The notes beneath the pieces were generated by a model, which was not told where the DNA came from, did no database searches, and saw nothing but the letters and a program-made list of their open reading frames with translations. This document shows, piece by piece, positions 50,112-55,040 of a DNA stretch of 61,253 bases (positions are counted from its first letter, which is position 1; the number at the start of each line of letters is the position of its first letter). Origin of the DNA: Candidatus Bipolaricaulota bacterium (GTDB lineage Bacteria > Bipolaricaulota > Bipolaricaulia > M55B111). Both the position numbers and the translations under genes were made by a program. The stretch is from positions 1 to 61,253 of the forward strand of contig JAIPHJ010000010.1 in the NCBI GenBank assembly GCA_021735245.1. The letters run 5' to 3'.

Positions 50112-51155
50112 GTGAAGGAAATTAATTCGGTAAACGAATATCCAGAGCGGACGGCTATCGTAAATTCCAGTACTTTCGGTCGGAACTTCGAGGATCTGAT
50201 GGAGCGACTGCGATCGCTCGGCCCAGTGGAAAGTTTCCAGTTTGATCCAGACGTGAACGGGAAGAAGTTGGCCAGGAAACTGGCAGGTTACAAGTACGTA
50301 ATAGCGAGCGTTACCCCGAACTTCCTGGAAGAGTTTTTCGAGGAAAACAGTGATATCAAGCTGATTGCAAGGCACGGAATAGGTTGCGACAACGTGGACC
50401 TGGAAGCGGCGACGACGGCAGGAGTTATAGTTACACGGGTAGGGCACCAGTCCGAGAGGGACGCCGTGGCCGAACTCACACTTTCCTTGATTATGACCTG
50501 TATCCGGAACGTTATTCCGGCCAACCAGGCAGTAAAAGAAAACCAATGGGAACGAAGAAAGGAATTTGTAGGCAAGGAACTGTCGGGAATGAAAGTTGGA
50601 ATTATTGGCTACGGAAACATCGGCAGCAGAGTGGGGGAGATAATTAAGGAAGGGTTTAGGGCTGAGGTTTCCGCTTACGATCCGAACATAGCTGACGCTG
50701 TAATCGAGAAGACCGGAGTGAAGCCGGCGGGGTTTGAAGAGGTTCTGGGTAACTCCGATCTCTTAAGCTTCAACGCCTCGTTGAACAAAGAGAACTACCA
50801 CTTCGTCGGGGAAGAAGAATTCGGTCTTATGAAGGACGGCGTGATAATTGTGAATACCGCCCGAGGGGAACTGATAGATAAGTCCGCCTTCCTTAGTGCC
50901 CTTGAATCCGGCAAAGTAAGGTGTGCCGGGGTGGACGTGCTGGAGGAAGAACCACCGAGTTCCAGGAACCAGCTGAGGCGAGAGGATAACCTCTACATCC
51001 TGCCGCACGTCGGGAGTTATACGGAAAAGTCCCTAAGGGCGATGGACGAGAAGATGGTTGAAGACGTCGAAAAACTGGTTGAAGGAGAAGTACCTGAAGA
51101 AGTTGTAAACCCTAAGGTTCTCAGAGAGGGCAATCGTGCCGGGGTTAGCAAATGA
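50112..51155 (+). CDS. D-isomer-specific 2-hydroxyacid dehydrogenase
   Basis: 347-residue NAD(P)-dependent 2-hydroxyacid dehydrogenase of the SerA/GhrB superfamily. RHGIGCDNVDLEAATTAGV near residue 90, the nucleotide loop GIIGYGNIGSRVGE near 162, the catalytic Arg in NTARGELID, Glu in DVLEEEPP and His in LPHVGSYTE are intact. No C-terminal ACT domain, so a serine-pathway role is unlikely. Between gnd and the gluconokinase-like gene it may act as a 2-ketoaldonate reductase, for example to set the C2 configuration between mannonate and gluconate (inference). The start codon is GTG. It overlaps the kinase by four bases. Confidence 0.85.
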   Translation: MKEINSVNEYPERTAIVNSSTFGRNFEDLMERLRSLGPVESFQFDPDVNGKKLARKLAGYKYVIASVTPNFLEEFFEENSDIKLIARHGIGCDNVDLEAATTAGVIVTRVGHQSERDAVAELTLSLIMTCIRNVIPANQAVKENQWERRKEFVGKELSGMKVGIIGYGNIGSRVGEIIKEGFRAEVSAYDPNIADAVIEKTGVKPAGFEEVLGNSDLLSFNASLNKENYHFVGEEEFGLMKDGVIIVNTARGELIDKSAFLSALESGKVRCAGVDVLEEEPPSSRNQLRREDNLYILPHVGSYTEKSLRAMDEKMVEDVEKLVEGEVPEEVVNPKVLREGNRAGVSK

Positions 51156-52654
51156 GTTTGGCGCTAGTTGTTGACGTGGGTACTACCAATATAAAGGCGG
51201 GTCTGGTCGATCCGGAAGGTCGGGTGCTCTCCCAGGCGAGCAGGAGTCTGGAAGTTCACAGGCCGGAAAAGGGAGCGGCCGAACACGACCCGGATGAGAT
51301 CCTAGAGTCCTTTAATGAGATAGTTAGAAAAACCGTTAAAGGGAACCGCGAAGAAGTCAAAGTCCTGGGTCTGACCGGTTACCAGTTCGGGTTTCTCCCG
51401 CTGGACGAAGGCGGTGAACCACTGACCGGGGTAATGACCCTGATGGACGAGCGACCCAAGTCCGTCATGGGGGAATTCCAGAGCAGGGACGACCTCGCCG
51501 AGATTTACAATCGTACCGGCTGTCCTCCGCTGTTTGCATATCAGTTACCCAAGCTTCTCTGGCTTAAAGAGGAAAAACCGGAAATCTTCGGGAAGAGCAG
51601 ATACTTTGCCGATGTTAAGAGCTTTTTGCTAAAAAAGCTGGTTGATGATTTCGTGACCGATCCCGGAATTGCATCTTCCAGTCAGATTCTCAACATAAAT
51701 GACCTCACGTGGGACGATCAGTTGATGGAACTGGCTGGTGTTGGCAGGGATCAACTTCCCAGAGTGGGTCGCGGTGAAGAAATTCTGGGAACGCTTCGGT
51801 CCGGACTGGCGGAAGAGTTGGGACTAAAGAGTGACTTAGAAGTCGTACTCGGCGTATATGATGGAGGAGCGATGGTTTTGGGGTTGGGCGGAGTGGACGG
51901 GCAAGGTGGAGTCTGTAACCTGGGTACTACCGCTATGATTCGAACCTGCTCCGAAGAGCCGGTGCTGGACGACCCGGAGAAACGGCGGCTTCAGACTTAT
52001 GCCCTATTACCTGGTAAATGGGCGATAGGTGGGGCAATAAACAATGCGGGAGTTGGTCTTCGCTGGTTTAGGGATAACTTTCAACCTTCCGGAAACTATT
52101 CCAGTATAATTGCTGATGCCGCTAGAGTGGAGCCGGGCTCAGGAGGAGTATTTAGCCTTCCCTACTTTACTGGTGAACGGGACCCGAGAATCGGAAACAT
52201 GGCAACTGGGTCGTTCTTTGGTTTAAAAGATTATCATGAAAAAGCACATATGGCGAGGGCTATCCTGGAGGGTGTCGCCTATAGTCTAAATTTCGTCAGA
52301 GAAGCAATGATGGACAACAGTATTGAGTATAATCGAATAAGTATAGGAGGTTCCGGAGCTCGCTCGGACCTCTGGCCCCAGATTATTGCGGACGTGACAG
52401 AACTTCCCGTGCGGAAAACCCTGACGGAAGATACGACCTTGATAGGAGGAGCTATGATTGGTTATAAAGCTATGGGTCTTTACGATAGTTTGGAACAGGC
52501 CAGCGAGAAAATGGTAAAAACCGGGAAAGAATTTTCCCCGATTAGCAAGAACGTGAAGCGCTATGAGGGAGGGTACGAATTTTTCAAAGAGCTGGTAAGG
52601 GAGTTCAGTAAACTTTATCCTATGCACGACGAGAAGTTTTCGCCGGGAAGTTGA
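51152..52654 (+). CDS. gntK: FGGY-family carbohydrate kinase, gluconokinase-like
   Basis: 500-residue sugar kinase. The N-terminal ATPase phosphate loop is VVDVGTTNIKAGLVD, followed by TGYQFGFLPLD and LMDERPKS. The second domain has GVYDGGAMVLG, NLGTTAMIRT and the adenine-binding IGGSGARSDLWPQIIADV near residue 400. Next to gnd the natural reaction is gluconate to 6-phosphogluconate, as for the gluconate kinase linked to uxaE and gnd in T. maritima. Xylulose or another sugar acid cannot be excluded. ATG overlaps the previous stop as ATGA. Confidence 0.78.
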   Translation: MSLALVVDVGTTNIKAGLVDPEGRVLSQASRSLEVHRPEKGAAEHDPDEILESFNEIVRKTVKGNREEVKVLGLTGYQFGFLPLDEGGEPLTGVMTLMDERPKSVMGEFQSRDDLAEIYNRTGCPPLFAYQLPKLLWLKEEKPEIFGKSRYFADVKSFLLKKLVDDFVTDPGIASSSQILNINDLTWDDQLMELAGVGRDQLPRVGRGEEILGTLRSGLAEELGLKSDLEVVLGVYDGGAMVLGLGGVDGQGGVCNLGTTAMIRTCSEEPVLDDPEKRRLQTYALLPGKWAIGGAINNAGVGLRWFRDNFQPSGNYSSIIADAARVEPGSGGVFSLPYFTGERDPRIGNMATGSFFGLKDYHEKAHMARAILEGVAYSLNFVREAMMDNSIEYNRISIGGSGARSDLWPQIIADVTELPVRKTLTEDTTLIGGAMIGYKAMGLYDSLEQASEKMVKTGKEFSPISKNVKRYEGGYEFFKELVREFSKLYPMHDEKFSPGS

Positions 52655-52687
52655 TCGTATTGCTTTTTTGGATTGAAGGAGGTTATA

Positions 52688-53641
52688 TTGTCGAAACTAG
52701 TTGAGATCAGAGATGAGAAAGTAAAGATAAGAGACGCCTATGGGGAAGTTCTTCCGGAGCTGGGCAAGGAAGACGAAGATATAGTTGTTTTGACCGCCGA
52801 CCTGGCCGGGTCCACGCGAACCAAGTACTTCGGCCATGAGTTCCCCGATCGATTTTTCAACGTTGGGATTACTGAGGCAAACATGATGGGTATGGCTGCG
52901 GGTCTGGCCATGGAGGGTAAGAAGCCTTTTACCAGTACGTTCGCGGTATTTGCCACAGGAAAACCGTGGGAACAGGTCAGACAGACGATCGCCTATCAGT
53001 CGGCTCCGGTTCGAATAGTGGCGACTCACTCCGGAATCACCGTGGGGGAAGACGGGGCGTCCCACCAGATAATCGAGGACGTTTCCAACATGAGAGTCCT
53101 GCCCAACATGAAAGTTGTTGTACCGGCGGACGCCACTCAGACAAAAGAAGTGATCAAGACCGTCGGTGGCGAAATGGACGGTCCCGTCTACGTAAGACTG
53201 GCCCGGGCAGCTTTCCCCGTGATTTACGAGGAGTGCGACTTCGAACTGGGTAAAGCCGAGGTTCTGCGGGAGGGTAGCGACGTGTCTATCTTCGCCATGG
53301 GGTTGATGGTGGCCAATTCCCTGGACGCGGCGGAGATCCTGGAAGATAAAGGTATATCTGCTGAGGTAATAAACGTCTCTACGATCAAACCCCTCGACTC
53401 CGAAACGGTTGTTAATTCAGTCGCGAAAACGGGTGCCGCCGTAACGGCCGAGGAACATAACGTAATCGGCGGGCTGGGATCGGCGATTTCGGAGGTAGTA
53501 AGCGAGAACGAGCCGGTACCAATCAAGAGAATCGGAATTCAGGATCGGTTTGGCGAATCCGGCCCCGCCTACGAACTGGTGGAGCACTTCGGGCTTACCG
53601 CTAAAGATATTGTCAGTAAGACTGTTAGTCTTTTAAGTTAA
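52688..53641 (+). CDS. Transketolase, C-terminal subunit
   Basis: 317-residue half-size transketolase containing the pyrimidine-binding and C-terminal domains. VVLTADLAGSTRTKYF, FFNVGITEANMMGMAAGLA (with the cofactor-activating Glu), FAVFATGKPWEQVRQ, THSGITVGEDGASHQ and PADATQTKEV are clear. It needs the N-terminal subunit at 54210 to form an enzyme that moves two-carbon units between sugar phosphates. TTG at 52688 is chosen because AAGGAGG lies five bases upstream. The C-half precedes the N-half, opposite to the linear order of fused transketolase. Confidence 0.88.
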   Translation: MSKLVEIRDEKVKIRDAYGEVLPELGKEDEDIVVLTADLAGSTRTKYFGHEFPDRFFNVGITEANMMGMAAGLAMEGKKPFTSTFAVFATGKPWEQVRQTIAYQSAPVRIVATHSGITVGEDGASHQIIEDVSNMRVLPNMKVVVPADATQTKEVIKTVGGEMDGPVYVRLARAAFPVIYEECDFELGKAEVLREGSDVSIFAMGLMVANSLDAAEILEDKGISAEVINVSTIKPLDSETVVNSVAKTGAAVTAEEHNVIGGLGSAISEVVSENEPVPIKRIGIQDRFGESGPAYELVEHFGLTAKDIVSKTVSLLS

Positions 53642-53656
53642 TACTATTGTTTTTGT

Positions 53657-54116
53657 TTGGTCAGGAGCGAGGTGTTTCTGATCTTAGCTTTTGGTAACTG
53701 TTCGATAAAACCGCAGGCGATTTCCCCGGCGTGGAAATCGCTGCTTCCGATCTCGGCCTCGCTCTCCACCCTTTCTTCATTGTACTGTCACAAAGAAAGG
53801 GCACCGAACCGAGAAAATTCCAGCGACGCGGCGCATATGTTTGACCGAGCCAGGAATTACCTGATGCTTGCATCAGGTAATTCCTGGAGAGGGATATTAC
53901 CATAACGGAATGAGGTTAAATGTTTATGTGTAATGCTTACTATCAATAAGAAGCACTCTCGGGAAGGCACCAGTTTGAGCACGCGAGTCGGAAATTTCTC
54001 GGTTCGGGAAGCCCGGAGGTCAAAAGGAGGACCAACGAAAGGGTGGAACCGTGCCCGCTCGGCCTCCGATAGGATTTTCCTGAACAGTAACCAAAAGCTA
54101 TATTTACTATGACCAA
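53657..54116. repeat. 460-bp nested inverted-repeat (foldback) structure between transketolase halves
   Basis: Several nested pairs share one centre: TTGGTCA (53657-53663) with 54110-54116; AGCTTTTGGTAACTGTTC (53686-53703) with 54082-54099, one mismatch; CCGAACCGAGAAA (53804-53816) with 53995-54007; and a central perfect 18-bp palindrome at 53850-53887. Local hairpins lie at 53717-53741 (9 bp) and 53769-53801 (9 bp). Reading frames here are low-complexity shadows of the repeats with no known protein. It fills most of the 568-base gap. It may be a foldback mobile element without transposase or a structured RNA. Confidence 0.65.
53850..53887. repeat. Perfect 38-bp palindrome at the centre of the foldback
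   Basis: CCAGGAATTACCTGATGC, a TT spacer, and its exact complement. Both strands can form an 18-bp stem with a two-base turn. Confidence 0.9.
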
Positions 54117-54209
54117 TAAGAGGAAGTTTTCTGGGGTTATTAATTATCAAGTTGAGTCCCTTAATTAAGCGGGGGGGACAGTTTTGAATGATTTAAATCG
54201 GGAGGAAAC

Positions 54210-55040
54210 ATGGAAATAAATGAGTTAAAAGAAAAAGCGAATCAACTGCGAGCTGACGTGTTGAAGACGGTAACTAATGCCGACTCGGGTCATCCCGGTG
54301 GTGCACTGGGAATGGCCGATACCTGGACGGTCCTTCATTACGAGTTCCTGAACGACAAGCCCGAGGATCCCGGCTGGGAGGGGAGGGACAGGTTTATCCT
54401 CTCGAACGGACATACCTGCCCCCTGCTTTACGCGGTGCTGGCCGATAAGGGCTACTTCCCGAAGGAAGAACTTGATAACTTCCGAAAGCTCGGTGCTTTG
54501 CTTCAGGGCCACCCGTCTACGGCCAAAGGAACTCCCGGTGTTGAGTTTTCCTCCGGCTCCCTCGGTCACGGGCTTTCGTTTGGATCAGGGGTCACCCTGG
54601 CAGGTCGTCTGAACGGTCAGGACTACAGAACATACGTGTCAATTTCGGACGCCGAATGTCAGGAAGGCCAGACGTGGGAAGCTGCTGCTGTGGCGAGAGA
54701 CAAGGAGCTGGGTAATTTATGTGCGCTGCTGGACTACAACGATAGCCAGATTGACGGGAAAGTCAGCGATATCATGGACGTGGCTCCACTGGTTGAGAAG
54801 TGGGAGAGTTTTGGCTGGAGGGTCATAGAGATCGACGGCCACGACTACGGGCAAATAGAGAACGCTTACGAGAATTTTCGCGACAATAGTTCCAGGAGAG
54901 GTAAGCCCACGGTAATTGTGTCTCATAATACCCTGGGTAAGGGAGTGTCCTTCATGGAAGACGATCCAGCGTGGCACCACGGAGCGCTTTCTTCGGACCA
55001 AATGGTACAGGCACTGAAAGAGCTGGGAGTAGGGAGTTAG
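54210..55040 (+). CDS. Transketolase, N-terminal subunit
   Basis: 276-residue thiamine-diphosphate-binding half of transketolase. TNADSGHPGGALGMADTW, FILSNGHTCPLLYAVLA and SSGSLGHGLSFGSG are conserved substrate and cofactor contacts. The thiamine-diphosphate motif reads SDAECQEGQTWEA to DYNDSQIDG, where most have GDG; the metal-binding Asp and Asn are kept. ATG follows GGGAGGAAAC. It pairs with the C-half at 52688 across the foldback region. A terminator hairpin ends the operon. Confidence 0.88.
   Translation: MEINELKEKANQLRADVLKTVTNADSGHPGGALGMADTWTVLHYEFLNDKPEDPGWEGRDRFILSNGHTCPLLYAVLADKGYFPKEELDNFRKLGALLQGHPSTAKGTPGVEFSSGSLGHGLSFGSGVTLAGRLNGQDYRTYVSISDAECQEGQTWEAAAVARDKELGNLCALLDYNDSQIDGKVSDIMDVAPLVEKWESFGWRVIEIDGHDYGQIENAYENFRDNSSRRGKPTVIVSHNTLGKGVSFMEDDPAWHHGALSSDQMVQALKELGVGS

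Follow-up and report, generated by a model that had tools for sequence, protein, structure and literature searches.

A nested inverted repeat between two transketolase subunit genes is probably an old copy of a genus-specific, modular foldback repeat family in Candidatus Bipolaricaulota

In a hypersaline genus of Candidatus Bipolaricaulota, the two subunit genes of a split transketolase are parted by a large nested inverted repeat, and the locus raises the question of whether this repeat is a foldback insertion or a structured RNA that controls the downstream subunit, both of which had been proposed in a preliminary description. The sequence analyzed here (the window) is a stretch of 61,253 bp from a draft MAG that is 85% complete (G000); the relatives used for comparison are likewise all draft MAGs, several of them from the Great Salt Lake (GSL). 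Pfam domains agree with the assignment of split transketolase genes to both sides of the repeat, and a Shine–Dalgarno-like GGGAGG is found at 54200, ahead of the downstream gene. Within 50112-55040, an FGGY sugar kinase and a D-isomer 2-hydroxyacid dehydrogenase precede the transketolase halves, of which the C-terminal comes first and the N-terminal second. A terminator-like stem with a T-rich tail (53659-53683; 0.7 expected by chance) follows tktC just 5' of the element. A different palindromic repeat (CCAGCACCCAG...CTGGGTGCTGG, then ACCAACTC...AAACCGC) occupies both contig ends (1-180 and 61071-61253) in diverged form; as the two copies are not identical, the contig looks like one broken by assembly at repeats rather than a circular one. 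The features of the locus are as follows, all on the plus strand.

52673-53641, plus: tktC, transketolase pyrimidine-binding and C-terminal subunit, a neighbor outside the element (Pfam)
53686-54099, plus: whole element, form I (A-B-h-C-D), 414 bp (inverted repeats, fold z = -10.7)
53686-53703, plus: P1, 5' arm of the outer stem (AGCTTTTGGTAACTGTTC), partner 54082-54099 (inverted repeat, covariation)
53703-53760, plus: module A, with conserved CGATAAAACC..., a side hairpin and ...CCGATCTCGGCCTC (mapping over copies)
53717-53741, plus: P2, side hairpin (GCGATTTCC/GGAAATCGC), covarying in 28 copies (inverted repeat, covariation)
53766-53775, plus: P4, 5' arm CCACCCTTTC, partner 54037-54046 (inverted repeat, covariation)
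53799-53849, plus: module B (..CCGAGAAAATTCCAGCGACGCGGCGCATATGT..) (mapping over copies)
53804-53821, plus: P5, 5' arm, partner 53990-54007 (inverted repeat, helix covariation)
53850-53887, plus: insert h, a 38-bp palindrome at the B-C tip (inverted repeat, module mapping)
53887-54024, plus: module C (mapping over copies)
53974-53997, plus: near-invariant motif TTTGAGCACGCGAGTCGGAAATTT within module C (conservation across copies)
54045-54092, plus: module D (GGAACCGTGCCCGCTCGGCCTCCGATAGGATTTTCCTGAAC..) (mapping over copies)
54082-54099, plus: P1, 3' arm of the outer stem (GAACAGTAACCAAAAGCT) (inverted repeat)
54210-55040, plus: tktN, transketolase N-terminal TPP-binding subunit, a neighbor (Pfam)

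The nested pairs and two local hairpins first reported for this gap are present where they had been placed, with bounds now refined from 53657-54116 to 53686-54099. The element begins 47 nt past the final sense codon of tktC and ends 110 nt before tktN. Its inverted pairs (53685-53710/54075-54100, 26 nt, 85%; 53765-53775/54037-54047, 11 nt, 100%; and 53804-53821/53990-54007, 18 nt, 94%) are nested around roughly one common center, and the local hairpins lie at 53717-53741 and 53850-53887, the latter with 18 of 18 positions paired. The predicted fold of the element reaches -178 kcal/mol, whereas shuffled sequences average -122, with 0 of 100 shuffles as good and a z score of -10.7 both as RNA and as DNA. 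No ORF of at least 100 aa was found inside the element in the ORF list, and neither a promoter nor an intrinsic terminator of its own scores above chance.

A search for further copies by BLASTN of the region against its own draft genome was positive, with 56 matches at ~29 loci; many of these are found where contigs end, meaning that the assembly breaks at the repeats. By the same method, the family was found in all five genomes of the genus, and no matches were found in 55 other relatives. A covariance model built on the outer half (A-D) only was used to scan 100 genomes of the phylum and gave 23, 24, 6, 23, and 16 matches in G000-G004, respectively, and 0 in the other 95. Nearly all copies examined are intergenic and of mixed orientation to both neighbors, and the ORFs that overlap them are short and mostly contained in the repeats themselves. 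Spread on phages or plasmids was rejected, as conserved 24- and 28-mers are absent from viral contigs and the repeat has no blastn match in phage and plasmid records.

Mapping of four sub-sequences across all fetched copies resolved the family into modules. The outer hairpin, made of A and D, comprises the long stem P1, the side hairpin P2, the tip stem P4, and conserved loops; the second hairpin, made of B and C, has P5 as its stem. Form I, that of the window copy, runs A-B-C-D and carries B-C on the A-D tip. Form II lacks B-C, and its A-D hairpin ends in either a short hairpin or a 107-bp insert (M). In form III, A-D is followed by B-C about 60 nt on. The P4 tip of other copies is empty or carries either the B-C module or the 107-bp insert, and the B-C tip carries either the 38-bp palindrome h or insert M, of which each of the six occurrences in the own genome falls either within a core or where a contig ends. 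The relative strand of A, B, C, and D is constant in nearly all copies, and the forms are very uneven in length, from 73 to about 480 bp. Clusters of other hairpins, with the core GGGCTCCCATTGCCC or GGCCGGGCACGGGGACCCGGCC and often alternating, were observed at L015, L017, L020, and L028, and such clusters occur even inside the loops of foldback elements.

Evidence of mobility is clearest in one subfamily (L117, L120, L136, and L025), which is bounded by 26-bp TIRs (GATAGTGTAG..TGTGTAAAA). Exact 8-bp direct repeats abut these TIRs in 4 copies (TAAAAATA, GCTGCTTA, GTTCCTTT, and TATTCAAT), and further TIR copies with target duplications exist beyond those four; a pattern search found 39 such TIRs in the genus and 0 with the reversed pattern as control. 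An intact PF00872 (IS256-family) transposase is encoded in G003 within a 1.49-kb IS (L161), of which the right TIR (GATAGTGTAGCATTAAATGTGTAAAA) matches that of the subfamily and which has an 8-bp duplication of its own (TGTTTCAC). Partial matches to the transposase were found in G001 and G002, and none in the 85%-complete draft of the own genome nor in G004. With these TIRs, 8-bp duplications, and a matching IS, the GATAGTGTAG subfamily is an IS256-type MITE. Numerous dispersed non-coding copies are a property of the family as a whole, whereas TIRs in common with an IS of the lineage are confined to the GATAGTGTAG subfamily. Two elements of 73 bp appear to have lost the core by deletion between short AAACC repeats. 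The 73-bp IS256-type MITEs at L177/L200 and L197 have a common internal junction (TTTGGAAACC joined to CATATT), and these short MITEs are probably a hairpin deletion derivative that has itself spread.

Other copies carry a second outer TIR (TCTTTCACCACCGCCGTAC) unrelated to the first, and since the same core lies within it, a single IS256 transposase cannot explain all copies. The form III copies L150, L154, L155, L148, and L130 lie within the second outer TIR CTCAATCYTTTCACCACYGCYGTACC, with a possible TTAA duplication at L150. No consistent TSD was found for form III copies or for those of the window type, and at the window copy itself there is neither a match to the TIRs nor a direct repeat of at least 8 bp beside 53686-54099. 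A drive by RAYT/Y1 transposases was rejected: Y1 genes occur in three genomes, where they are flanked by other hairpins with no A-D or B-C module beside them. Two of these loci (L157 on G000:C76 and L158 on G001:C118) have Y1_Tnp genes amid many REP-like hairpins (GGCCGGGCACGGGGACCCGGCC and relatives) and look like a RAYT–REP system in Bipolaricaulota.

The tktC-tktN gap is short in outgroups (27-44 nt; L031, L033, and L034): the sister genus (L031) has about 44 nt, and members of other families have 27 nt. In four genus members it is 562-724 nt long. The element occupies it in all four genus members in which the gap was located, tktN being absent from the assembly of the fifth (G003). From these lengths, the insertion most likely dates to the genus stem or to an early branch within the genus. 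A foldback or MITE insertion, one of the two original proposals, is supported for the family by the dispersed intergenic copies, the empty arrangement in the sister genus, and the one subfamily with TIRs, TSDs, and an IS256 relative; it does not extend directly to the window copy, which has neither TIR nor TSD and the transposition of which is read from its family.

The other proposal, a structured RNA controlling the downstream subunit, takes the element as a cis-regulatory RNA (an attenuator, processing site, or riboswitch-like leader) that sets the ratio of the transketolase subunits. In its favor, a strongly structured element splits a gene pair that is tight in outgroups and is present in the gap of 4 of 4 genus members where the gap was found. 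However, dozens of other gaps, unrelated to this one, carry copies that point either way, the sister genus and other families have no insert between the two genes, and in this very gap the element is inverted in two species, so no conserved orientation toward or association with tktN of the kind expected of a leader RNA was found. The cis-regulatory reading is largely refuted by these observations, and we give it only a very small probability.

The inversion at this site was followed across species. The element is on the plus strand in the window and at L029 and on the minus strand at L030 and L032, and its distance from tktC is 47-52 nt in all four species. The right flank at L029 aligns to those at L030 and L032 unflipped (z = 4.7 and 4.6), and flipped controls fall short of these scores; the right flank of the window gives weaker unflipped alignments (z = 2.5 and 2.2). 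The constant left distance and unflipped right flanks indicate that the element was turned and not its surroundings. Orientation at other orthologous sites, read from tblastx coordinates, is opposite at L022/L124, at L123/L135, and less cleanly at L014/L153, and is retained in about nine orthologous pairs. At L176, the two TIRs of the MITE can be told apart, and the core runs backward relative to them. In sum, cores flipped against conserved flanks occur at the transketolase site and at two or three others, and one MITE contains a flipped core as well.

The arms of the element change together. Across 28 copies, the P1 arms (pairs 4-16) are 85-90% complementary within a copy and only 53-62% complementary between different copies. 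In 21 distinct A-D cores, 97% of cells are paired, and the A-D helices contain 132 two-sided versus about 5 one-sided changed cells, compared with 4-17 two-sided cells in slid controls. G-T and A-C mismatches in P1 are equally frequent (9 and 10), with no strand bias. Homogenization of arms and inversion of the spacer are described as the two outcomes of template switching (PMC8604942), and it has been argued that template switching can produce compensatory changes spanning several bases in RNA hairpins (PMC8794818). The two-sided arm changes and spacer inversions found here are what would be expected if replication switched templates between the inverted repeats, and we infer this mechanism for elements of this family. 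The inverted spacers documented in PMC8604942 are only 2-5 bp, far shorter than the core of ~400 bp inverted here; with documented spacers of only a few bases, recombination or gene conversion from an inverted copy is possible for the core, as is independent insertion at the same site.

Taken together, the window feature is probably an old copy of a genus-specific, modular foldback (MITE-like) family that spread in trans and was remodeled by template switching. Under this model, the family would have been mobilized by IS256-type transposases, and the window copy would have inserted between tktC and tktN in some ancestor belonging to the genus and later lost its outer ends, or else have arrived by way of a related element. 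Switching of the polymerase between arms would keep the arms complementary while their sequence drifts and could also turn the core around in place and delete or swap hairpin tips. The element would have no transketolase-specific role, adding at most a strong hairpin to a read-through transcript. Three points sit less easily with the MITE-like model: the conserved internal loops and the G-U excess of B-C exceed what a passive MITE needs, neither a TIR nor a TSD is detectable at the window copy, and no IS256 transposase was found in its own 85%-complete genome.

The first of these points bears on whether the family is instead a functional structured RNA, trans-acting or a retro- or ribozyme-like mobile RNA, with selected loops and MITE ends as mere vehicles. 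Unpaired stretches are conserved over copies and species, and long invariant loops such as TTTGAGCACGCGAGTCGGAAATTT suggest sequence-specific recognition of the RNA or DNA form. The B-C helix has 37 two-sided versus about 30 one-sided cells, and its departures from pairing favor G-U over A-C on one strand, with 26 versus 4 cells, although copies are related and cell counts overstate this excess; the departures fall in 13 and 4 columns, respectively, and tested by columns the bias is borderline (12 to 4, P = 0.08). Such a modest bias is possibly compatible with a functional RNA, as are the presence of one core both in "bare" copies and within two TIR containers unrelated to each other, and the relative strand that A, B, C, and D nearly always share. 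Against this, the A-D stems have no G-U bias (9 to 10) and change almost only on both sides, no upstream flank is conserved, and no sigma-70-like promoter was found in or just beside the window copy. Rfam covariance models gave no match at the gathering score and only chance matches at E<=5, and a known RNA family was rejected accordingly. A retron, group II, or other RT-driven element was also rejected, as a reverse transcriptase is missing from 4 of the 5 genomes and the sole one has no module near it. A functional RNA is therefore unlikely, with a small chance of being correct. About as doubtful is a core that is itself a selected RNA or DNA parasite, riding in several unrelated MITE containers and inverting within its host hairpin; such a parasite, given a similarly low probability, could have its second domain either within the first or next to it and would be recognized by structure rather than by a fixed terminal sequence.

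Among known repeats, the MITE-like family invites comparison with several. ERIC and the bcr repeats of Bacillus cereus are likewise intergenic, imperfect palindromes with many copies per genome, but they are smaller and lack three-level nesting, a distinction drawn by description. A REP/BIME-like DNA-structure element, that is, a protein- or gyrase-binding palindrome kept for nucleoid function, would also be intergenic, palindromic, multi-copy, and orientation-neutral, and many orthologous sites do keep their copy across species; yet the uneven forms, deletion derivatives, and TSD-bounded insertions resemble transposition debris, and the family is confined to one genus, which makes this explanation highly improbable. 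IS256 (Mutator-like, PF00872) MITEs are matched in the ~26-bp TIRs like those of an IS256 element in a sister species, the exact 8-bp duplications, the intergenic location, the lack of an ORF, and the deletion derivatives, but only one subfamily here fits these features, and the conserved nested multi-hairpin core is shared with copies in another TIR container and with bare copies such as that of the window. The BOX elements of Streptococcus pneumoniae and S. suis (PMC3049150) resemble the family in organization, being dispersed composites with a middle module that is optional or variable in number and a predicted structured transcript, and pneumococcal repeats insert into one another (PMC10969869); unlike in BOX, the middle module here can stand next to the outer hairpin as well (A-D-B-C), and in-place flips of the core occur. 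Correia (CREE/NEMIS) elements of Neisseria are similarly intergenic and bounded by inverted repeats with a conserved core; their inversion is reported in a review of MITEs (PMC10969869), but promoters, IHF sites, and targeting by RNase III, all reported for Correia elements (PMC2649163, PMC3049150), were not among the features found here. The family is thus a new variant within the MITE or bacterial interspersed repeat kind, an intergenic modular foldback mobile repeat, and is unusual in its three-level nesting, the alternative placement of its second module, a core common to unrelated containers, and recurrent flips in place.

For the host, the transketolase element is most likely a genomic parasite and not a dedicated switch for the genes that it parts, and the transketolase riboregulator can be closed off as a false lead. 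The two-sided compensatory changes of the outer half, free of strand bias, are a warning that covariation alone is no proof of a functional RNA. With five genomes and up to about two dozen core matches in each, the family offers a natural data set for the evolution of large palindromes in bacteria, in which arms drift together, cores turn in place, and tips are swapped or deleted.
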